The notes below the pieces were generated by a model that saw only the letters and a program-made list of their open reading frames with translations, was not told the origin of the DNA and made no database searches. A stretch of 64,000 bases of DNA from Methylotenera versatilis 7 (GTDB lineage Bacteria; Pseudomonadota; Gammaproteobacteria; Burkholderiales; Methylophilaceae): contig NZ_JUGF01000001.1 in assembly GCF_000799165.1 (NCBI RefSeq), forward strand, positions 1 to 64,000. Direction: 5' to 3'. This document shows positions 3,001 through 58,972 of the stretch, piece by piece (within the stretch, counting starts at the first letter, position 1; each line of letters starts with the position of its first letter). The position numbers and the translations under genes were made by a program.

Positions 3001-4490
3001 GGCAGCAGTACCGCCGACCTGACCGAGACCAATGCCGTACAAAGCACTGGCGGCACACTCACGGCGACCGACGTGGACAGCGCCGCGACCTTCGTGGCGC
3101 AGACCAACGTGGCCGGTTCCAACGGCTACGGCAAGTTCAGCATCAACGCCGCCGGCGTGTGGACCTACACCATGGATACCGCCCACAATGAATTCGTTGG
3201 CGGCACCAGCTACACCGACAGCATTACGGTGGCGACAGCCGACGGCACCACGCAAGTGATCACCGTCACCATCCTTGGCACCAACGATGCGGCGGTACTG
3301 GGCAGCGCCACGGTTAACCTCACCGAAACCAATGCCGTGCTCAGCACCAATGGCACACTCAGCATCAGCGACGTGGACAGCCCAGCCACCTTTGTGGCCC
3401 AAACCGCCACTGCTGGCACCTACGGCAGCTTCAGCATCAACGCGGCAGGCGCCTGGACCTATGTTGCCAGCAGCGCGCACAATGAATTCGTCGCTGGCAC
3501 CACCTATACGGACACCTTTACGGTGACCAGTAGCGACGGCACCACCACCAGCGTCACCGTCACCATCCTTGGCACCAATGATGCGGCCGTCATCACTGGC
3601 AGCAGTACCGCCGACCTGACCGAGACCAATGCCGTACAAAGCACTGGCGGCACACTCACGGCGACCGACGTGGACAGCGCCGCGACCTTCGTGGCGCAGA
3701 CCAACGTGGCCGGTTCCAACGGCTACGGCAAGTTCAGCATCAACGCCGCCGGCGTGTGGACCTACACCATGGATACCGCCCACAATGAATTCGTTGGCGG
3801 CACCAGCTACACCGACAGCATTACGGTGGCGACAGCCGACGGCACCACGCAAGTGATCACCGTCACCATCCTTGGCACCAACGATGCGGCGGTACTGGGC
3901 AGCGCCACGGTTAACCTCACCGAAACCAATGCCGTGCTCAGCACCAATGGCACACTCAGCATCAGCGACGTGGACAGCCCAGCCACCTTTGTGGCCCAAA
4001 CCGCCACTGCTGGCACCTACGGCAGCTTCAGCATCAACGCGGCAGGCGCCTGGACCTATGTTGCCAGCAGCGCGCACAATGAATTCGTCGCTGGCACCAC
4101 CTATACGGACACCTTTACGGTGACCAGTAGCGACGGCACCACCACCAGCGTCACCGTCACCATCCTTGGCACCAATGATGCGGCCGTCATCACTGGCAGC
4201 AGTACCGCCGACCTGACCGAGACCAATGCCGTACAAAGCACTGGCGGCACACTCACGGCGACCGACGTGGACAGCGCCGCGACCTTCGTGGCGCAGACCA
4301 ACGTGGCCGGTTCCAACGGCTACGGCAAGTTCAGCATCAACGCCGCCGGCGTGTGGACCTACACCATGGATACCGCCCACAATGAATTCGTTGGCGGCAC
4401 CAGCTACACCGACAGCATTACGGTGGCGACAGCCGACGGCACCACGCAAGTGATCACCGTCACCATCCTTGGCACCAACGATGCGGCGGT
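1..4490 (+). repeat. 7.5 near-identical 597-bp tandem repeats
   Basis: The unit recurs at 1, 598, 1195, 1792, 2389, 2986, 3583 and 4180; the last copy stops half way, near 4490. Each unit encodes 199 residues, two non-identical VCBS domains. Translations in the alternative frames and on the other strand are identical from copy to copy, so the DNA, not just the protein, is essentially invariant. The segment is clearly more GC-rich than the rest of the gene. Recent amplification or ongoing gene conversion is the simplest reading; the true copy number may be larger because the array runs off the left edge. Confidence 0.97.
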
Positions 4491-24037: not shown

Positions 24038-24113
24038 GCCCCCGTAGCTCAGTGGATAGAGCATCCCCCTCCTAAGGGGAGGGTCACACGTTCGATTCGT
24101 GTCGGGGGTACCA
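24038..24113 (+). tRNA. tRNA-Arg (anticodon CCU), element integration site
   Basis: 76 nt with encoded CCA. Acceptor GCCCCCG pairs with CGGGGGT (one G-U pair). The anticodon stem TCCCC/GGGGA holds the loop CTCCTAA, giving CCU. The 3' two-thirds (from 24064) are duplicated exactly at 58923-58972. Integration at this end therefore leaves the tRNA intact here and a 50-bp tRNA fragment at the far end. Confidence 0.97.
24064..24113 (+). repeat. attL: 50-bp direct repeat within tRNA-Arg
   Basis: Identical over 50 bases to 58923-58972. It begins TCCCCCTCC in the anticodon arm and ends at the CCA. Flanks differ on both sides. Confidence 0.95.
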
Positions 24114-31567: not shown

Positions 31568-32635
31568 ATGGCAGATCTCACGGCAATAAAACCAGTTATA
31601 ACCAATGTGTTGCAGGCAATGGACAGCGTAGGAGTAGAGCTGTCGGCGAAACTTGGCGGTATGGATGGGGTAGGTTTTAAATTTTTAGGCATCGTATTTG
31701 CCCTAATGTTTCTCTATAACGTATTCATTTTTATGATCGACGGTAGTAACAAAGTAATGGTTGATGTAACCAAACTACTTTTAACATATGTGATATTGGC
31801 TTCGATGATCATTGGGTGGAGTAGTCCAATGGGCGGCAATGGCCCAACGTCATCTGTATCAGTGAGCGGATTTTTCCTAAAAGCGATTCCAGATATTGCC
31901 GAAGAATTTACCAATGGCAAAGATGCAACGGTTGAGATTGTCGATAAATATGCTACTTCGATTGGGCAAATGTACAAGGTTTTGTCACCACCAGAAAAGG
32001 AAACGCAAAGCATTTCTGACAAATTGATCAATGCTGTGCCAATTGCTGGCTTTGCTACGACTGTAAGCTTAATCTCAGGTGGCAATGCAATGCAAAATGC
32101 CAGTGGAATATCGCTTTTTATCAGCATTATAATTTTAGTTATTGCCGTATTTTTTCAGCTTTGGGCACTAGTTACTTTTATATTTATTTTGAACGCAGGC
32201 CAGCTAATGATGTATGTTGGCCTTGCGCTAGGACCTATCCTTATTCCATTTTTACTAATACCAAAACTGAGTTTCTTGTTTGATGGTTGGCTTAAATTCA
32301 TGATTTCAGCGAGTTTGTTTAAGGTCGTTGCTGTATTGGTTGGATTGTTGTCACTTGGCACAATCGATGCGATTGTTGTTTATAGCAACGCGGCATCAAC
32401 TGGCGATGAAAACATAATCTTTCTGTCACTAATGGTTCTTTTTTTTGCGATGCTCGGAAAACAGATGATGGGATTAGCTGACAATATTGCATCTTCAATT
32501 GCAACAGGTGGTGCTAATTCAGGTGGTGCGGGCGATAGTCATGCACTATTGGTTGGAGCTGCCAGGACAAATAATAGAGGCAGCAGTACGAAAGAAAAAG
32601 TGATAAAAGCCGAAAAGACTACAAAAGCTGCTTAG
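31568..32635 (+). CDS. VirB6/TrbL-like polytopic inner-membrane protein
   Basis: 355 residues with about six hydrophobic segments. They cluster near 38-80, then around 178-255 (SLFISIIILVIAVFFQLWALVTFIFILNAGQ and the conserved-looking MMYVGLALGPILIPFLLIPKLSFLFDGWLKFMI), and 280-300. A hydrophilic Gly/Ser-rich cytoplasmic tail ends in Lys-rich sequence. This layout, with the LGPIxIPFLL..FxxWLKFMI core, is typical of VirB6/TrbL channel proteins of type IV secretion. It ends the operon-like run; a strong terminator follows. A complete machine is not encoded in the window. Confidence 0.82.
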   Translation: MADLTAIKPVITNVLQAMDSVGVELSAKLGGMDGVGFKFLGIVFALMFLYNVFIFMIDGSNKVMVDVTKLLLTYVILASMIIGWSSPMGGNGPTSSVSVSGFFLKAIPDIAEEFTNGKDATVEIVDKYATSIGQMYKVLSPPEKETQSISDKLINAVPIAGFATTVSLISGGNAMQNASGISLFISIIILVIAVFFQLWALVTFIFILNAGQLMMYVGLALGPILIPFLLIPKLSFLFDGWLKFMISASLFKVVAVLVGLLSLGTIDAIVVYSNAASTGDENIIFLSLMVLFFAMLGKQMMGLADNIASSIATGGANSGGAGDSHALLVGAARTNNRGSSTKEKVIKAEKTTKAA

Positions 32636-33225: not shown

Positions 33226-34101
33226 ATGGATGAAATTCAAAAAATAATTAGTCGCTATGATGAGGTGTATATTTCAGAAAGCTTGAAATCCCTTGAAGAT
33301 ATTAATAAATTCACAGGGCTTTTCGTTAAAGATGTGGCTGAAATTTATGATTGCATAACACGGATAAGGAACGTTGATAGGAACCCTGTAGGCTTTTCAT
33401 TAGATGATGCACCGATTTTGGGATTGCTTACAAAAATATGGAAGTTACTCAAGGAAATCGTTACATATTACGATAAAAATAATGCTGAAATAATTAGCAT
33501 ATTAGAAAGACCTCTTCTGGAGGCATCAATTATTGCTCAATATTTACTAATGCAAGATTCCGCAGTAATGGAAGACTATCGAAAGTGCTCTTATAAAGAT
33601 CGACTAAGAATATTGAGGGAGTTAAAGGATGGTTCCCATTTTTTTGATACTAAAGCAGGTAAGAGATTGCTTGTGTCAATTCAAGAAAAAATGGATCTCG
33701 AAGGTTTTACTGAAGAAAGCTTTCAATCTCAGAAGAAAAATAGCTGGAAGTTACAAGGGAAAAATTTTTTTGAAATTTTTAAAGAAATCACGGATGAAGA
33801 TCTTTATAAATGTACCTACGGAATAATGTCAGAGTCAATTCATGGCTCATGGAATGAATCAATGGACTGGTGTCTTCAAAAAAATGAAGATTCAACATTT
33901 TCAGCTTTTCCTTTCTACCACGAAGCCGATGTAAGATACATCTGCCCAACTATCAAGTTTTGCAATGAACCTTATAGATTATGGTTAAAGAGGATAGACT
34001 GCGAAGATGAGTATTTAACGGCTGTTCTTGATTGGGTTGAGAGAGTAAATGCGAGAATATTTATGATTTATGATCAAAAGTATGATGGGCCAAATGGCTA
34101 A
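33226..34101 (+). CDS. DUF5677-like helical protein
   Basis: 291 residues, all-helical in appearance. Key segment: ISILERPLLEASIIAQYLL, then YRKCSYKDRLRILREL, and later YGIMSESIHGSWNESMDW. The pattern (R/E near the middle, late YxxxSxxxHGSW) resembles DUF5677 proteins, which have HEPN-like features and occur on mobile elements. Enzymatic activity is not established. A weak ribosome site precedes the ATG. The gene is AT-rich like its neighbours. Confidence 0.6.
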   Translation: MDEIQKIISRYDEVYISESLKSLEDINKFTGLFVKDVAEIYDCITRIRNVDRNPVGFSLDDAPILGLLTKIWKLLKEIVTYYDKNNAEIISILERPLLEASIIAQYLLMQDSAVMEDYRKCSYKDRLRILRELKDGSHFFDTKAGKRLLVSIQEKMDLEGFTEESFQSQKKNSWKLQGKNFFEIFKEITDEDLYKCTYGIMSESIHGSWNESMDWCLQKNEDSTFSAFPFYHEADVRYICPTIKFCNEPYRLWLKRIDCEDEYLTAVLDWVERVNARIFMIYDQKYDGPNG

Positions 34102-34423: not shown

Positions 34424-34558
34424 TCTTAATGCCTATCCACAAGTATTTTAGGGGATGGCAACACATAACTTGAATCTAAATCTCTATCAGGAATTCCAGA
34501 ATCTCTTGCAATAATCTTTGCTAAAGATAAGTTGTCGCATGATAGGCCTTGGTTATAC

Positions 34559-34591
34559 ATATAAAATCCACCACCCAATTAAGGGTGGTGG
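34559..34591 (-). terminator. Terminator at the 3' end of the candidate large RNA
   Basis: On the minus strand the stem CCACCACCC/GGGTGGTGG (34583-34591 with 34568-34576, 6-base loop) is followed by ATTTTATAT. A 9-bp GC-rich stem followed by a U-rich run supports leftward termination. Confidence 0.8.
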
Positions 34592-35901
34592 CGTGCCTAG
34601 TATTACCTAGTCGCGAGTTGTTTAGTCTCACGCTTGCCGCAATCGGCCAAATGCTACACAGTAGCCCGTAAATGAGTCGGTTCAATAGTCTGTTTATCAC
34701 GAGTTCAGACCAGTCGTTTAAAACACTTGCCAACAAAATATAAAAGGTCAGTTCATTAAGCTGTACCTAGTTTATTAAGTCTAAATCCACCACTTTTCGA
34801 GCAGTGTATCGCTATAGTCGCTCGAAAAACCCCGCCAAGGGTTTCTCGAGACTTCTGTTTGCCTGCCAAGGCAAAAGCACTTCTTTGTTACAACAACTTT
34901 TGGGATTCAACCCAACCGCACTGCGTACCCCTTTACTAACGGTGCCCTCGATGTTTTGAGGATTGCCAGACCTTTCGAGTCTGTTATTTATAGCCAATTA
35001 CTCAACTATAAAGCCAGGCTTGCGCCCAACAACAACTGTCTTTCAACAACACTTTCAGTAACCTTTCACCCTCCACGTACAAGCTGCGCATATTGCCTAT
35101 ATGCGCCGTGGGTAGGGCTTCAAGTAATTAGTCTCTTTTACATCTTCGTTATAGTACGTCGTAAGCTCACTGTATTAATCTACTAACATTGGCCTTTGCC
35201 AATCTTTCAGGGGACCGAGGTTCCATAGCATCTCCCTTACCGATTTCTAATACATTGTTTCCACTTATTCGCAGGCACTGGAGGCCCTAGCGACACTTTT
35301 AACGCGGCTTTGCAGCCTCTTTCCTACTTTGCTGTTTCCAGCTTATCAACCCGATTGACGCTCCTCCACGACTCCCTACAGCTTCCCAATTGACTGGTTC
35401 ACTATCTGGTAGCCACGATACTCACTTTTTCTAGAAGTGTTACCGTATGTGACCGTTTCGATCACTTTCATTGTGGGCCTCGGGTGAGGCACCAACCATG
35501 CAACATGTCTATCCCTAGATTTAGCTGCACAACTGGGCGGTGAGTTACACACCGTTTTATTACAAGACAGGGTTTAAGTCTTACTCGATATTTTGAGCTA
35601 TACACTTTCCCTCTTTCTTACTCGCACAATTTCTATAATTTAAAGCTTATTCAAGGGACAAGATAAAGTGGTGAGTTTAGTTTCAGAAAAAATTACTTTC
35701 TAAAGATTACCTCACCACCTCCCTTGATGCACCGCTGATGCGAATTTCTTGGCTGCGGCGCTAAGGTACTTCTCAGTTGGCTGACTGAGTATTGCGGTAA
35801 GTTGTTAGAGTTGGCGCTCCCCGAGAAGTCATCCTAAATGGCCTCTGGGGGAGCGCCAATCCTAGCGTCTTAAGTAGATTGTAGACTAGTTATTTTTGCT
35901 T
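34559..35901 (-). ncRNA. Candidate large structured non-coding RNA (~1.3 kb)
   Basis: About 1.3 kb with no plausible gene yet markedly different composition from the AT-rich flanks. Many short perfect helices: TTGGCGCTCCCC/GGGGAGCGCCAA (35811-35822, 35848-35859), CTCAGT/ACTGAG (about 35773-35790), GCGCATAT/ATATGCGC (35086-35093, 35099-35106), ATTGGC/GCCAAT near 35190, GCCTC/GAGGC near 35480, CGGTG/CACCG near 35545, TTTTCGAGC/GCTCGAAAA near 34800. Minus-strand orientation is indicated by a strong terminator at the left end and a promoter-like pair at the right end. Size and complexity recall giant bacterial RNAs such as GOLLD or ROOL, but I cannot match a family. No group II domain V or RNase P core was seen. 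Confidence 0.5.
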
Positions 35902-35907
35902 TTGTTA

Positions 35908-35935
35908 ATTTTATATAGGAACCTCTATATGTTAA
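35908..35935 (-). promoter_or_regulatory. Promoter-like -35/-10 pair for the candidate large RNA
   Basis: Reading the minus strand, TTAACA (35935-35930) and TAAAAT (35913-35908) are separated by 16 bp. This would start leftward transcription near 35901. Match to sigma-70 consensus is moderate. Confidence 0.45.
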
Positions 35936-36071
35936 CTAACAATAAATATGAACGCATATTAACAATCAAGAGCTTAACCATATTTGTTTATTTACAACAA
36001 AGACTTGCTTATTGATAATTAAAATCTTATTTTCTCAATACCTTAATTGCTTAAATTTGAAGAATTTAATT

Positions 36072-37412
36072 ATGCAAACTAAATATGTTCCACACTATTT
36101 CGGTGAATTAGTGATTCAAAAATTATCAGGTAGAGTTGGATGGTTAACTGCTGGTGTTGCATCATCTATTCCATGGCCGAAGCTAGATGTTTGGGTGCAG
36201 TATGGAGGAGATGATTATATTCTTAGGGGAACAGAACTTAACGGAAAACAGTCACCACCTTGCATCACAGTACCTTGTGATTCTCATCAAGTGGATGAAG
36301 TATTGGCTAAAGTTTATCGATTTACTTCAATACTAAGTTGGTATTTACATGGCTATGTAGATGTTTCTGGGTATGTTTCAGGATCACATCCTATGCTATA
36401 CGGTGACCCTATAAAGGTCTACTCCGAATTAGGTATTTACGGAAGTAAATCATTTAGTTGTAACCATATGCCAATAATAAAGAGTGAAAATGTGCGAAAA
36501 GCACTCGCATTTTGGCGCGAAGGTCAAAGGTTGCGGCGAGTGCACAGTAGTTATGCATTTCTAAGTTTTTATAAAGTCATAGAATCTCAATTTTCAAAAC
36601 CTGCCCTCAAAATAGCCTGGATTAATGAAAATTTAGATAAGTTAACTGCAAAAGCTGCTAGAAGAGTTTTAGACCTTCAAGGAGAAGGTATTGATGTAAG
36701 TAAGCATCTATTTGAAAGTGGAAGATGTGCAGTCGCACATGCAACCCTTGAAGGCGAGATCGTTGATCCAGATATACCAGCTGATAGGCGTAGACTAACA
36801 TCCGATATGGACATTATGGAACAGTTAGCTGAGCGTTACATTAGATGTGAATTAAAAGTCCCAAATGAAAGAACTTTGTATGAATCAAGAAATCGCTTAG
36901 AGCCATGGGAAATATTAATATCTCCTGAGAATTTAGCCATTCTAAAAAATGGCGAAACGCCATCGAACTTCACTGATTTAGATAATCTTTATGTTTCAGT
37001 AGGTTTATGGCCAGATGGACCAATCCTTGGATTGGAAAATATGATTATGCATGTTGACGTGATAGAAAGGGGTGTTGTAAAAATTGTACTATTCAATAAT
37101 CGAAAAACAGTATTTCTTGTGTTCTTTTTAGATTTCGTAAATGGCCGTTTACACGCCAATTTAGAAGATGGTGGTTTGTGTAAAGGTGACAATGATCCTA
37201 ATGAGGATGATGTTAGATCCTATTACTCTTTTTTCTATTATCTTCTATGGAATGGTATAGCGGAACTCACGTGTAATGACATTGAGCCAATTGATTGTGA
37301 AGTTATCATACCTGTGAATATTATTCCTCAAAATCCAATTGAGGCAATTGAAAAAACTATTTCAGCATTTCGCTTACAAGAAAATAAAAGCAAAGCATTA
37401 AAGTTGTATTAA
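36072..37412 (+). CDS. HEPN-motif-containing hypothetical protein
   Basis: 446 residues from ATG 36072; a TTG at 36012 would extend into AT-rich non-coding sequence. Region 145-235 is helical (FLSFYKVIES, KLTAKAARRVLDLQGEG) and ends with RCAVAHA, matching the HEPN RX4-6H motif (Arg218, His223) as found in ApeA-like domains. VDPDIPADRRRL follows. The C-terminal half is mixed alpha/beta with no known domain. HEPN domains are often RNA-cleaving parts of defence or stress systems. The gene is divergent from the candidate large RNA with about 170 bp between. The HEPN call rests on one motif. Confidence 0.55.
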   Translation: MQTKYVPHYFGELVIQKLSGRVGWLTAGVASSIPWPKLDVWVQYGGDDYILRGTELNGKQSPPCITVPCDSHQVDEVLAKVYRFTSILSWYLHGYVDVSGYVSGSHPMLYGDPIKVYSELGIYGSKSFSCNHMPIIKSENVRKALAFWREGQRLRRVHSSYAFLSFYKVIESQFSKPALKIAWINENLDKLTAKAARRVLDLQGEGIDVSKHLFESGRCAVAHATLEGEIVDPDIPADRRRLTSDMDIMEQLAERYIRCELKVPNERTLYESRNRLEPWEILISPENLAILKNGETPSNFTDLDNLYVSVGLWPDGPILGLENMIMHVDVIERGVVKIVLFNNRKTVFLVFFLDFVNGRLHANLEDGGLCKGDNDPNEDDVRSYYSFFYYLLWNGIAELTCNDIEPIDCEVIIPVNIIPQNPIEAIEKTISAFRLQENKSKALKLY

Positions 37413-37435: not shown

Positions 37436-38188
37436 TTAAATTAATTCTAATAATTCGTTTGCTTGGTCGGCAGCTTTTAATAGCCTTTCATTTTCAACAT
37501 TGTTCATTTGCTTAACTAAATCTTGAAGTGTTAAGTCCTTGAACACTTCAATTCGCGGCATGGTTGGTAGTTTCACAGGTAACACCTGCGGATATGCTGA
37601 CTTACGTTTTTTATTCCAAGTTTTACGACCGTAGTCATTAAGGTCTATAACCTGGTCACGTATCCCGCTAAACATCGGCATATGGCCAATACGACTAAAG
37701 TAATCTTTTAAAGCTTGCTCACCTGAGTCTGCTGCACCTTTAGACATGGCAAGTTGATCCTTAAAATACTCCTTTTGCATTTGCCATGTCCATGTGATTT
37801 TGCCACCTTGCTTTCTATCACGTTGAATTTGGGTTAAGTGGTATTGATCGCGCCAAGTCAGCGGCACTTTTAGTGCGTCTGACAGTTTTTCTCTTTCATG
37901 AGTTAATCCACTGCCTGGCGTAGCTAAAAGCCAATACATAACCTTAGTTTTGTCCTTATCGTGGGGAAAAATCACTAGTTTGGCTGCGGCTTTCCCCTTT
38001 TTCTTGAGAGTTTCTCGTTGAGATTGGGTGGCTTCCACACCGTAAAGGCTATTCATTTTAGATGCGAAGGCTTCTGCTTTAGAGAAGTGCATCACACCAC
38101 AGGTCCAGTTTCGATAGCCAGTGCTTACGAGTAATTGAAGGTAAGACATAGCGGCAGCTTTTGAGGTGGGAATATTGATTGATTGCAT
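37436..38188 (-). CDS. Hypothetical protein, likely mobile-element specific
   Basis: 250 residues. I choose ATG 38188, which has GATGGAGTTTGTC upstream; the frame extends to 38209 without a better start. Basic and soluble: AAAKLVIFPHDKDKTKVMYWLLATPGSGL, then RDQYHLTQIQRDRKQGGKITWTWQMQ. No catalytic motif recognised and no HUH pattern of a relaxase. Basic composition suggests nucleic acid contact, but that is weak. Confidence 0.72.
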   Translation of the reverse strand: MQSINIPTSKAAAMSYLQLLVSTGYRNWTCGVMHFSKAEAFASKMNSLYGVEATQSQRETLKKKGKAAAKLVIFPHDKDKTKVMYWLLATPGSGLTHEREKLSDALKVPLTWRDQYHLTQIQRDRKQGGKITWTWQMQKEYFKDQLAMSKGAADSGEQALKDYFSRIGHMPMFSGIRDQVIDLNDYGRKTWNKKRKSAYPQVLPVKLPTMPRIEVFKDLTLQDLVKQMNNVENERLLKAADQANELLELI

Positions 38189-42125: not shown

Positions 42126-43400
42126 TTAATTTACTTCGGGTAAATCTTCCCACTTAGTCGTATAACTCGGACTCATGTTTTCCTGCTTCATCTTCCAAGG
42201 CCGCGTAAAACCCTCGCTGGCCAGCTTAACGGCTTCTTTACCCATTTTACGATTAATCTTATCCATAGCAGCCATCAAAGCATTTGATTTAGGTGAGACT
42301 TGCACCTGGCTGAATAAATCGGTTTGCACGCCAGCTGAAGGAACCAGTTCGGAGAGCATTACTCCTGCCTTCGCGTATTTAAAGTTTGGTTTGAATATCT
42401 GTTTTAAGCCCCATAGAGCGACGTTTGCCAGTTGTCTAGTGTCATCGGTGGGGGATGGCATTGGAAGTGTCATGCCGTTGCTGTAGTAAGGTTGATTAGG
42501 CTTGAATTCACTCGTTCTGATGAATACATATACCGAACCTGCAAATGACTGTTGTTTACGTAATTTCTCTGCAGCGCGACTCATGTACAACGTAATTGAT
42601 TCTGACAGGCTGTTGTAGTCGTACACTGCATGGCCGAAGCTCCTTGAGCTAACTATCTGCTTCTTAGGCGGAGCAATTTCCTCCATCTCAATGCAGACTA
42701 TGCCATTTAACTCATGAATCGTTTTCTGCATGACAACACTGAATTGCTGTCGCAACGCATTCGCATCAGCGCGTTTTAAATCCAGTACGGTGTTGTAACC
42801 AAGCGCTTGCAGCTTGGGGGCTAGTTTGCGGCCCACACCCCAAATCTCACCAACTCCAATTTGACCTAATAGATTATCCAGCTCAATAACTGGCATGGCA
42901 TTGAAATTACACACGCCATTAAATTCAGAACGCTTTTTAGCACAATGATTGGCCAGTTTGGATAGTGTTTTAGTTGAAGCAATGCCAACACATACGGGCA
43001 GCCCAGTCCACTTCAGAACACGCTTGCGCATCTGTTGGCCATAATTGATTAGATCCAGCGATTTAAATGCAGTGAGTTCGAGGAAGGATTCATCAATCGA
43101 ATAAACCTCTTGGTCTGGGCTAAATTCGCGCAAGATATTCATGACGCGATTGCTCATGTCAGCATAGAGGGCATAGTTGCTTGAGAGGGCTTTGATGCCA
43201 TGTTGCTTGGCCAAGTCTGCGAACTTAAACCAAGGCGCACCCATGCCGACACCTAGCGCTTTAACCTCATTGCTACGAGCTACGGCGCAGCCATCATTAT
43301 TTGATAAAACAACGACAGGAATATTAATTAGCTTGGGATTAAATACACGTTCACACGAAACGTAAAAGTTGTTTACGTCGATAAGGGCAATACTGCGCAT
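42126..43400 (-). CDS. umuC: UmuC-like Y-family DNA polymerase V catalytic subunit
   Basis: 424 residues. Family motifs: [19 protein letters not shown] at the N-terminus with the metal-binding Asp, [11 protein letters not shown] with the second acidic pair, [21 protein letters not shown], and the helix-hairpin-helix [20 protein letters not shown]. With UmuD' it forms Pol V for translesion synthesis. Located 6 bp after umuD, so an operon. Close to chromosomal length, no visible disruption. Confidence 0.96.
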
Positions 43401-43406
43401 ACAACA

Positions 43407-44039
43407 CTACTTTTGGAAACGTCTAAAGGAGCCTGTGCAAACTCCCCAGATTTCAAACTGCATTTCTTCAGTAATTTCTATGGGGGAATATGCGCCTGTG
43501 GAATTTGCTGGTAAAAGTCTTGGGGCTTTCGTCTTGCTATGACGACCAAGAATTTTAATAGTGAATTCACCATTCACAATAGCCAACACGATATCGCCAA
43601 CAGAAGCATCTTTAGAGCGATCAATTACGGCTTTATCACCTGGTAACAAGCCGACATCAATCATTGATTGACCTTGGATGGTTACGAAGAATGTAGCGTC
43701 TTTTTGATCAATCAAGAACTCACTTGGATCAAGGCGTGTTTCTACATGGTCGTCAGCTGGTGATGGAAAGCCTGCAGAGACTTTTGATGAATACAATGGA
43801 AGTGATACAGGCAACGCGCTAAGACTCGGTAACTCAAACTCTGCAATCACATCTAGATCAGTCAATAATTTTTTATGCTGGTAGGCTGCCAAAAAATCTT
43901 TAATGACAGGTTCTTGACTGACTGGAACACGGACTACAGATGTCGGCTCACCAAACTTGCCTGTACCTTCTCTGCGGCCAGCATTAGGCCGAGCACCACC
44001 ATGGGTTATTTCTAAAATATTTGATTTATTATCGTTCAT
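43407..44039 (-). CDS. umuD: UmuD-like S24 protease subunit of Pol V
   Basis: 210 residues. Cleavage site SAGFPSP (between Ala89 and Gly90), Ser125 in GQSMIDVGLLPGD and Lys162 in GEFTIKILG. Ser to Lys spacing is 37, the same as E. coli UmuD. A 70-residue N-terminal extension (HGGARPNAGRREGTGKFG) makes it longer than E. coli UmuD. RecA-stimulated self-cleavage yields the active form. The start codon has no Shine-Dalgarno site and abuts a palindrome. Confidence 0.95.
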   Translation of the reverse strand: MNDNKSNILEITHGGARPNAGRREGTGKFGEPTSVVRVPVSQEPVIKDFLAAYQHKKLLTDLDVIAEFELPSLSALPVSLPLYSSKVSAGFPSPADDHVETRLDPSEFLIDQKDATFFVTIQGQSMIDVGLLPGDKAVIDRSKDASVGDIVLAIVNGEFTIKILGRHSKTKAPRLLPANSTGAYSPIEITEEMQFEIWGVCTGSFRRFQK

Positions 44040-57732: not shown

Positions 57733-58833
57733 CTATAAAGAATTTACAGCCATTTTCTTAGCCAGGTCATCAACACTCACTTGATAATATCTATTAAGCA
57801 TTTTCAGATCAGAGTGGCCAGTAACGCGACTAAGCTCAATTACGTTCGGAAGAAGGGCAGCCAACCGACTCGTTGCTTCGTGCCGCAAATCGTGAAATCT
57901 TAGGTTAACCAAGAAGTTTTCATCAATCTTAACGCCATTCAACTCACATTCATTCAGATACTTGGCCAGTGCGCGATCTCTGGCGCGTTCAAAAGCTTGG
58001 CTTATATATTCACCCTTCAGCCCAAATACGAAACCATCTATGCGAGCTGGCAGGGCCTTTAACAGTTCAGCAGCAGTTGGTATCAATGGCGCTACTCTGT
58101 TTTTACCATTTTTGGTTTCCATCAGCTTTGCAGATGGAACAGTTAAATCAATATTTATTCGCATTAAATTCGATATTTCACCGCGCCGCATTGCAGTATA
58201 AAGCGCAAGTTTTACGATTGATGCTAACTCAATACTGCTTGTGTTGTTGCAAATGGCCTCAATCTCAGCATCGCTAACGCGTCTTTCACGAGCATCATCA
58301 ACAGATAGTTTTTTAACTTTAGGTATGCCGTGTGGCAATGTGATTTTGCAGTCGTCATGAGCATAAGACAATAATCGGTTTAAAGTCGTAATTTCTCGAT
58401 TGGCGGAGTTTGCCTGAATTGTTTCAAGTCTAGTGTTTCGGAATTGGATGATGACACTGGTTGTTATGGCACCAATAATTTTACTTCCCAAAGCTTTCTC
58501 AATGATATTGAGGCGTGAAACTTCCTGAGGCTGTGCTTTTATGGAAAGCTTGGTTTTATCTGTCTTTGTTTTTGGAGTTTTTTCATCTGCCTCTGACTCT
58601 GATTTCGGCTTAATGTTGAGTTTTTCTTTTTTGTATCGTTTGATTAGTTGGCTTAGTGTAGTGCGCTCGGCTTCATTTGTATTAATAAAGATTCCGCGAT
58701 CAATCTCACTTTCGGTTTTTCTTGCCCAGACATCAGCGTCTTTCTGATAAAAAAAGGTTTTACTGATTTGATGGCCTTTTCGCCTGATTGAAGCACGCCA
58801 CTGGAATTCACCGCGATATGTAATAGTAGCCAT
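57733..58833 (-). CDS. Tyrosine recombinase integrase of the element
   Basis: 366 residues. Catalytic residues of the family: Arg216 in YTAMRRGEI, His314 and Arg317 in FHDLRHEA, His340 in VTGHSDL, and Tyr349 in LNRYYQ nine residues later. N-terminal part contains an arm-binding-like segment (YRGEFQWRASIRRKGHQISKTFF) and a charged linker (about 70-105). Gene lies at the right end, transcribed inward, with GAAGG before its ATG. It should insert and excise the element at tRNA-Arg(CCU). Confidence 0.95.
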   Translation of the reverse strand: MATITYRGEFQWRASIRRKGHQISKTFFYQKDADVWARKTESEIDRGIFINTNEAERTTLSQLIKRYKKEKLNIKPKSESEADEKTPKTKTDKTKLSIKAQPQEVSRLNIIEKALGSKIIGAITTSVIIQFRNTRLETIQANSANREITTLNRLLSYAHDDCKITLPHGIPKVKKLSVDDARERRVSDAEIEAICNNTSSIELASIVKLALYTAMRRGEISNLMRINIDLTVPSAKLMETKNGKNRVAPLIPTAAELLKALPARIDGFVFGLKGEYISQAFERARDRALAKYLNECELNGVKIDENFLVNLRFHDLRHEATSRLAALLPNVIELSRVTGHSDLKMLNRYYQVSVDDLAKKMAVNSL

Positions 58834-58922: not shown

Positions 58923-58972
58923 TCCCCCTCCTAAGGGGAGGGTCACACGTTCGATTCGTGTCGGGGGTACCA
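58923..58972 (+). repeat. attR: 50-bp tRNA-Arg fragment
   Basis: Exact duplicate of the tRNA-Arg 3' part from the anticodon arm to CCA. It lacks the 5' half, so it is not a functional tRNA. It lies 89 bp upstream of the integrase start and marks the right end of the element. Confidence 0.95.

Follow-up and report, generated by a model that had tools for sequence, protein, structure and literature searches.

Genomic setting of the block

The locus described here raises the question of what is encoded by a long block at 34559-35901 of the window, by which we mean the whole 64,000-nt stretch of Methylotenera versatilis 7 DNA that was analysed. A reading made from the letters alone (the sequence-only reading) had taken this block to be free of genes, different in composition from its surroundings and dense in helices, with a promoter-like pair at one end and a strong terminator at the other, and had proposed that it specifies a single giant structured RNA on the minus strand. 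The block lies within a 34.9-kb element integrated in a tRNA-Arg (CCT) gene and bounded by a 50-bp exact repeat, the left att-like copy of which (24064..24113, plus strand) is the 3' part of the tRNA gene, with the right copy at 58923..58972 (plus strand). An integrase of the Phage_integrase family is encoded just inside the right end of the element (57733..58833, minus strand), and a TrbL/VirB6-type protein of type IV secretion systems (T4SS) is encoded within it (31568..32635, plus strand).

No long ORF spans the block and the largest ORFs inside it, of 71 and 76 aa, are on opposite strands; a coding gene was thereby ruled out as its content, and the description of the block as gene-free was upheld. 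The difference in composition was also borne out, as the GC skew of the plus strand is negative over the block (down to -0.24) whereas both flanks are positive, and the AT skew drops to -0.16; the minus strand is G-rich. Folding was compared with that of shuffled sequence in 200-nt windows. On the minus strand z reached -4.8 to -7.8 at 35600-35999, -3.1 and -4.4 at 35300-35599, and -4.3 at 34500-34699. It stayed between -1.0 and +0.4 at 34600-34799 and across 34900-35399, so that the middle of the block is not proven by local folding. The minus strand is thus folded far better than shuffled sequence in the 5' part, near 35300-35599 and at the extreme 3' end, and not in the remaining windows. 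Since the plus strand is partly well folded as well (z of -3.8 at 34800-34999, and of -4.5 and -5.4 at 35700-35999), the strand is not fixed by folding alone.

The terminator noted at the far end is present, as an intrinsic-terminator-like hairpin of 9 pairs followed by ATTTTATATG (34568..34591, minus strand), and a long 5' hairpin with 35-nt arms that are 77% complementary occupies 35798..35872 (minus strand). The promoter-like hexamers TTAACA-16-TAAAAT can also be seen (35908..35935, minus strand), but they are weak and not above chance; with three promoter-like matches observed in the region against a chance mean of 5.5, the promoter argument is a weak one. The ends of the RNA, placed at 34559..35901 on the minus strand from the promoter-like site and the terminator, are approximate. 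Proof of the existence and strand of the RNA is provided by homology and covariation.

Comparison with known RNA classes

The sequence-only reading had recognised no RNA class, had suggested that the RNA could be new, and had proposed a covariance-model scan. A scan of the window against Rfam 15 at the gathering score returned two tRNAs only, with no family matched in the block; at E<=10 the block gave only snoR103 (4.1) and mir-731 (4.6), both far below their gathering scores. A scan of eight homologous loci gave 16 matches, every one below the gathering score. Known RNAs, including GOLLD, ROOL, OLE, group I and group II introns and RNase P, were rejected, as the Rfam matches were sub-threshold chance matches only. 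A degraded intron had been named in advance as a finding that would speak against a new RNA; neither the group I nor the group II intron models matched in the block or in the eight homologous loci, and a degraded intron of a known kind was discarded. It is close to certain that the minus strand of 34559-35901 encodes a giant structured RNA of a class absent from Rfam.

Relatives of the RNA

When the window RNA was used as a blastn query, no match was found in plasmids, phages or E. coli. Among 100 related genomes (its own included), 61 were matched at E<=1, and apart from the genome's own copy these matches were short, with a best other E of 0.0014; the one inspected (L004) appeared to be coding DNA and was rejected. 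Among 369 genomes of the class, two besides its own were matched at E<=0.002, both at the identical stretch of about 37 nt and both, by eye, within gene-free blocks of about 1.2 kb. This core of about 37 nt was turned into a pattern with 19 of 23 positions fixed and scanned on the genome_contigs, where it was found at 36 loci, 17 of which have a longer core; representatives of these 17 share long flanking similarity in those compared. They belong to gamma- and alphaproteobacteria, namely Vibrio, Photobacterium, Sedimenticola, Paraglaciecola, Pelagibius, Kiloniella, Pokkaliibacter, Thalassolituus and MAGs. The other 19 loci, being 17 terminator-like repeats of Peribacillus/Bacillus together with L055 and L061, were dropped by eye. 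Genomes of Peribacillus/Bacillus hold many copies of a repeat with TAAGGGAGTTGCTTTGGCAGCTCTTTTT, which by eye seems to form a family of terminator-like hairpins with no relation to the RNA (L026-L029, L032, L035, L036, L039, L041, L043-L045 and L047, and further L049, L051, L054 and L059).

A blastn search with the Vibrio lentus copy returned 36 plasmid records. A family profile detected the RNA at E<=1e-60 in 13 of 19 plasmid loci, and further in plasmids of Deinococcus (8e-34) and A. baumannii (3e-16) and marginally in one of Thermus (0.0075), with nothing in L074, L078 or L080. With a central-domain covariance model the corresponding values were 3.4e-19, 1.5e-17 and 6.6e-9, and nothing was found in the second Thermus plasmid (L074) or in four control plasmids; the core model found none of the Deinococcus, A. 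baumannii and Thermus copies. In the Thermus plasmid L073 (6911-7056, minus strand) and the Deinococcus plasmid L075 (53-220, minus strand), both outside the Proteobacteria, the RNA is located near a gene for the partner protein described below. These matches indicate an RNA family of about 1 kb that is present in Proteobacteria and Deinococcota.

Phages gave no such result. Two family members had no blastn match among 50,697 phage records, and in IMG/VR two core patterns gave one chance match and none, respectively, while a pseudo-translation scan of viral contigs gave none. The pattern match in the viral contig L025, which by eye is inside a protein gene, was set aside as chance.

Individual copies showed some further features. 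In Pandoraea pPO70-4 (L076, 11852-14051) the RNA is in two pieces that flank a transposase gene of the IS256 family, and in Halomonas pHaKG2_3 (L068, 1006-1830) a hypothetical protein of about 274 aa, probably a false ORF, is annotated antisense over the RNA. Downstream of the RNA at L024 (complement, ~914-334) is a coiled-coil, DNA-binding-like protein whose resemblance we take to be to KfrA.

Conserved structure and covariation

An alignment of homologues in search of compensatory changes, also proposed by the sequence-only reading, was made from 25 RNAs (A3), and its structure was predicted by RNAalifold. Left out of A3 were L052 (the 3' part of which is past the contig end), L063 (a near copy of L062), L064, L066, L073, L075, L076, L079, the later finds L090-L092 and the window RNA, so that the covariation count excludes the window copy; an alignment of 24 rows (A5) leaves out L040 too. 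The consensus of A3 comprises 199 pairs in 34 helices. The fraction of cells paired was 91.1%, compared with 68.7% for shuffled and at most 41.8% for slid versions, and although derivation of the structure from the same alignment favours it on this measure, the gap to the controls is still very large. Changes on both sides were found in 145 of the 199 pairs, and the covariation score was 0.569, while shuffles reached 0.177 and slid versions 0.078-0.115. All seven pairs of the core helix (columns 665-672 with 687-693) covary, one of them being seen as A-U, G-C, C-G and U-A. No pair changed on both sides in helices 6, 8 and 25, and helix 6 was paired in only 76% of cells. Hairpins with a KUGGYR hexaloop numbered 54 in 29 RNAs against 1.95 expected, with four of the 29 RNAs having none.

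The window RNA is recognised as a member of this family by its conserved core domain (35156..35296, minus strand), which matches the core model R1 across all 138 positions on the predicted strand with 46.3 bits and an E of 4.7e-10 (nhmmer E 9.1e-13), the runner-up in the 4 kb searched having 12.9 bits. It carries the conserved core GUAAGGGAGNUGCUUUGGAANCUCGGNCCCCUGAAA with the covarying helix of the family, and the 36-nt core GTAAGGGAGATGCTATGGAACCTCGGTCCCCTGAAA (35205..35240, minus strand) has local matches of 36-43 nt with 86-98% identity in 17 homologues. Two hairpins of the family type are present on the minus strand, one with the KUGGYR hexaloop UUGGCG on a 12-pair stem (34821..34850) and one with UUGGCA on a 6-pair stem (34858..34875), where 0.07 would be expected by shuffling and about 0.25 by whole-window density. 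With homology, covariation and a core match on the predicted strand, the giant minus-strand RNA of the sequence-only reading has been substantiated.

Partner protein

A gene adjoining most copies of the RNA encodes a protein that is typically about 230 aa in length, and its homologue in the window is a 250-aa gene at 37436..38188 (minus strand). Here the partner gene is co-oriented with the RNA, and one gene, for a MauJ-domain protein (36078..37412, plus strand), is between them; elsewhere the order is divergent. Of the 17 true genome_contigs loci the partner gene was found at 15, in two cases cut by the contig end; at the remaining two (L046 and L050) the sequence covered upstream of the RNA match was just 545 and 302 bases long. 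Of 13 plasmid loci that matched the RNA strongly, it was found at 10, namely at all except L062, L070 and L079. A partner-profile search of the 100 related genomes matched the genome of the window copy and three others, in all three of which the RNA is divergently upstream (E 1.8e-63, 1.4e-60 and 1e-5). At the partner loci L074, L078 (part of the record searched) and L080 the RNA was not found. A longer version of the partner, of about 390 aa, was observed in L078 (6001-7167), L080 (6192-7358) and L066 (8605-9768), of which L078 and L080 are those where no RNA was found.

Known protein families gave little indication of what the partner is. Seven members searched against Pfam gave nothing but one sub-threshold match in pMtBL, and 14 members had no match in NCBIfam and single-member matches only in PHROG (best E 0.001). 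No Pfam reverse transcriptase or maturase model was matched, and no nuclease motif was seen by eye. An AlphaFold model of the partner was confident (pLDDT 88.7, pTM 0.84), and Foldseek found no match to it in PDB and BFVD at E<=0.001. RNase P protein and Cas6 were rejected as identities, their sequence-profile matches (E 0.24-0.81) being no evidence.

Plasmids carrying the RNA

In E. coli the RNA was found in 21 of 5,426 genomes, at 23 places on 22 records, none of which is chromosomal. Seven of the plasmids are of 2.9-3.1 kb and 15 of 27-36 kb, with one strain having both. The RNA DNA is common to the ~3-kb and ~30-kb plasmids at about 96.6% over 90% of the query, as would be expected of a hitch-hiker copying a transfer tag.

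The location of all 23 E. coli places on plasmids would also suit a replication RNA, that is, a primer or copy-number control RNA of a plasmid replicon, like ColE1 RNA II. A 3,082-bp E. coli plasmid points the same way, as the RNA is accompanied on it by just three short hypothetical genes and no Rep is annotated. However, many RNA plasmids have Rep genes of their own, and these are diverse (RepL, TrfA, RepAci21 and other initiators); to our knowledge, moreover, an RNA of about 1 kb with 34 helices is far larger than the primer RNAs that have been described. The replication origin of pMtBL is given as 1918-2759 in its published description (PMC10033558), and this origin replicates without the RNA region, matched at 3112-3875. 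Since the pMtBL origin excludes the RNA, the replication-primer reading is lowered, and we consider it unlikely. The RNA resembles ColE1-type RNA II and the pMtBL origin in being a plasmid non-coding RNA, and differs in being located, on pMtBL, outside the mapped origin.

An RNA gene with a protein gene next to it is reminiscent of RNA-protein addiction pairs, and the two might instead form a stability, partition or incompatibility module, serving the upkeep of low-copy plasmids or acting as a type III toxin-antitoxin-like pair. RNA antitoxins are short repeats, however, which counts against such a module, as do plasmids that have the RNA and in which no partner was found: the E. coli plasmids of about 3 kb (L062), Komagataeibacter pGE3 (L070) and Novacetimonas pKHC110_1 (L079), in the scan of which a partner gene spanning the record start would be missed. 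An addiction pair does not predict these plasmids, and type III toxin-antitoxin was rejected as RNA and protein are not always together. A copy number of about 1 and great stability are recorded for pMtBL in its description (PMC10033558), which fits a stability module, but the same text credits the stability to a separate partitioning system outside the origin; the partner gene and the RNA occupy much of what remains of pMtBL beyond these two. In six of the seven E. coli strains with small plasmids no second RNA plasmid was found, so for their maintenance the small plasmids are not dependent on a resident partner. On balance a stability module is rather unlikely.

Because the RNA is found on plasmids in which no partner was detected, the RNA locus is suggested to be cis-acting, with a partner able to act in trans; in Novacetimonas C110 the RNA is on one plasmid and the partner gene on a second. 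In PLSDB, 35 of 36 RNA records and all 30 partner records are typed as non-mobilizable, many of the E. coli records being near-identical. Such MOB-suite calls are weak evidence, since three VirB4-related plasmids (L081-L083) are also called non-mobilizable though a MOBC-like protein is present in them.

Gene order and proposed function

On the Gluconacetobacter plasmid pGDIPal5I the gene order is coupling protein, RNA, partner and VirB11-type ATPase. The VirB4 of this plasmid matched 154 plasmids, 92 of them mobilizable, 53 non-mobilizable and 9 conjugative. Four RNA-less, VirB4-related controls were chosen from a spread listing of 60 of the 154 records, and neither the RNA nor the partner was found in the parts of them scanned (22.5-37.6 kb). 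Three of the four, from Pseudomonas, have a gene between those for the coupling protein and VirB11 that encodes a protein of 252-258 aa showing a PD..ExE..K pattern; one of the three is typed MOBC, and we infer that the protein in the slot is the typed MOBC relaxase. A MOBC-like profile built from the three Pseudomonas proteins matched all four RNA-less relatives in whole records, the Proteus plasmid being the only independent match (E 2.3e-36) and the other three matching by construction, and it matched none of 16 RNA/partner plasmids. The MOBP profile PF03432 matched none of 18 records and the MOBF profile PF08751 none of 20, and with the MOBC-like profile these make up the relaxase profiles run. 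Genes for a T4SS or a coupling protein were found in no more than about five (L063, L071, L072, L076 and L077) of the 16 RNA/partner plasmids, so that the exclusion of a relaxase rests on few lineages; a coupling-protein domain was found in three of the 16. Kinship of the partner with MOBC was not supported: the partner profile has no match in the MOBC-like proteins, nor has their profile any in the partner plasmids.

Synteny with the relaxase slot, together with the plasmids that carry the RNA only, points to transfer initiation. Our preferred reading, put forward tentatively and at somewhat less than an even chance, is that the RNA and its partner form a transfer-initiation module that replaces the relaxase and oriT. 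The RNA of about 1.3 kb and the partner of about 250 aa would act together as a ribonucleoprotein whose genes are borne on plasmids and integrative elements, with the RNA locus as a cis-acting, oriT-like tag. The RNA may fold on or near its own template and recruit the partner, and the complex would then ready the DNA and, taking the role of a relaxase, dock it to a type IV coupling protein and secretion channel. The family of RNAs, its covarying structure, its frequent pairing with the partner and its presence on plasmids and integrated elements are observed; transcription of the RNA in one piece, its binding to the partner and its action in DNA transfer are predicted by the proposed mechanism. 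Several observations weigh against this reading: a coupling-protein domain in just three of the 16 RNA/partner plasmids, nine of the 16 with no T4SS gene listed in gene tables that are incomplete, no coupling-protein match in the genome of the window copy, three partner loci at which no RNA was found, a partner with neither a nuclease motif seen by eye nor a fold match, and, in the window, a co-oriented partner separated from the RNA by another gene. A stronger version, which is doubtful, has the RNA itself as the relaxase: with the partner as cofactor it would cut or open the plasmid DNA at or near its own gene and pilot the strand into the type IV secretion channel, such that a ribonucleoprotein would start conjugation instead of a protein relaxase. 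Such a system would be old, since related RNAs are found in Proteobacteria and also in plasmids of Deinococcus and Thermus.

Proximity of the RNA to coupling-protein and VirB11-type genes in some plasmids could also mean that the RNA or ribonucleoprotein is a cargo exported by the T4SS, or that it controls T4SS genes or entry exclusion. In one study (PMC3158045), VirB4 clusters lacking a relaxase were assigned to putative T4SS for protein export, which is in line with such a role. However, the PLSDB gene tables for the whole records, which are incomplete, list no T4SS gene for nine of the 16 RNA/partner plasmids, and a role as cargo or regulator seems improbable.

The proposed transfer-initiation module resembles a MOBC relaxase with its oriT in its position, since one RNA plasmid has it in the slot, flanked by the coupling-protein and VirB11 genes, that holds the MOBC-like protein in three relatives, and in having a cis element that is carried by small plasmids without the protein. 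It differs in that a covarying RNA gene stands instead of a short DNA site, and the partner and MOBC-like profiles do not cross-match. Like group II introns, including those that integrate by RNA-DNA steps, it would pair a large structured RNA with a protein potentially able to act on DNA; unlike them, the RNA matches no intron model, and the partner has no match to a Pfam reverse transcriptase or maturase model. Only a small number of giant RNAs are known from bacteria, and what most of them do is unsolved. Giant ornate RNAs are known as a kind: GOLLD, ROOL and OLE are likewise kilobase-scale non-coding RNAs with dense helices, and GOLLD and ROOL are also found on mobile elements. The present RNA differs from these three in having no Rfam match, a recurrent partner gene of about 230 aa, and a plasmid rather than a phage setting. 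An RNA of kilobase size that has a recurrent protein partner and sits with it in the relaxase slot is apparently new within the open-access literature searched, where no description of the RNA family or the partner protein was found. The role of this RNA is directly testable, as it has a partner, occurs on tractable plasmids (pMtBL and the 3-kb E. coli plasmids) and has a position that hints at its function. Should the RNA indeed replace the relaxase, a class of plasmids typed non-mobilizable would move by a route not yet known, and a further marker would have to be added to plasmid-mobility typing.

The copy in the window

Outside the core the window RNA resembles the family only weakly. The central-domain model R2 has its best match at 35321-35491 (minus strand), in the expected place and on the expected strand, with 7 bits and an E of 0.34. 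Since the core is recognised and the central domain is not, the window RNA is a very divergent member outside the core, with outer domains that have been rebuilt or are drifting. A decaying relic in which the core alone is still under selection would be in keeping with this weak match, with the additional gene between RNA and partner, and with the absence of any coupling-protein match in the genome of the window copy. Against a relic, the terminator, the long 5' hairpin, the two hexaloop hairpins and the partner ORF are all intact, the core is 98% identical to the Thalassolituus copy over 41 nt, and L092, from another genome of the same order (G063), can be aligned with the window RNA across 153 nt around the core, with an identity of 62% (E 2e-5). 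Decay of this kind is quite unlikely.

Although the element has a VirB6-like gene, no coupling protein was matched in its genome, and the window copy probably could not transfer by itself. In the same genome there was no match to PF03432 or to the MOBC-like profile, the latter having no positive control of its own there, and nothing exceeded the cut-off for VirB4 (PF19044), which is a poor check as a real E. coli VirB4 was also under the cut-off.

The element carries other genes besides. A DUF5677 gene (33226-34101) is near the RNA, and with the MauJ-domain gene it may possibly represent defence cargo; PADLOC defence-gene models matched none of 10 neighbouring proteins. UmuD/UmuC-like genes at 42126-44039 were named by eye only, and a P-type ATPase, a multicopper oxidase and an outer-membrane efflux protein are also encoded within the element.
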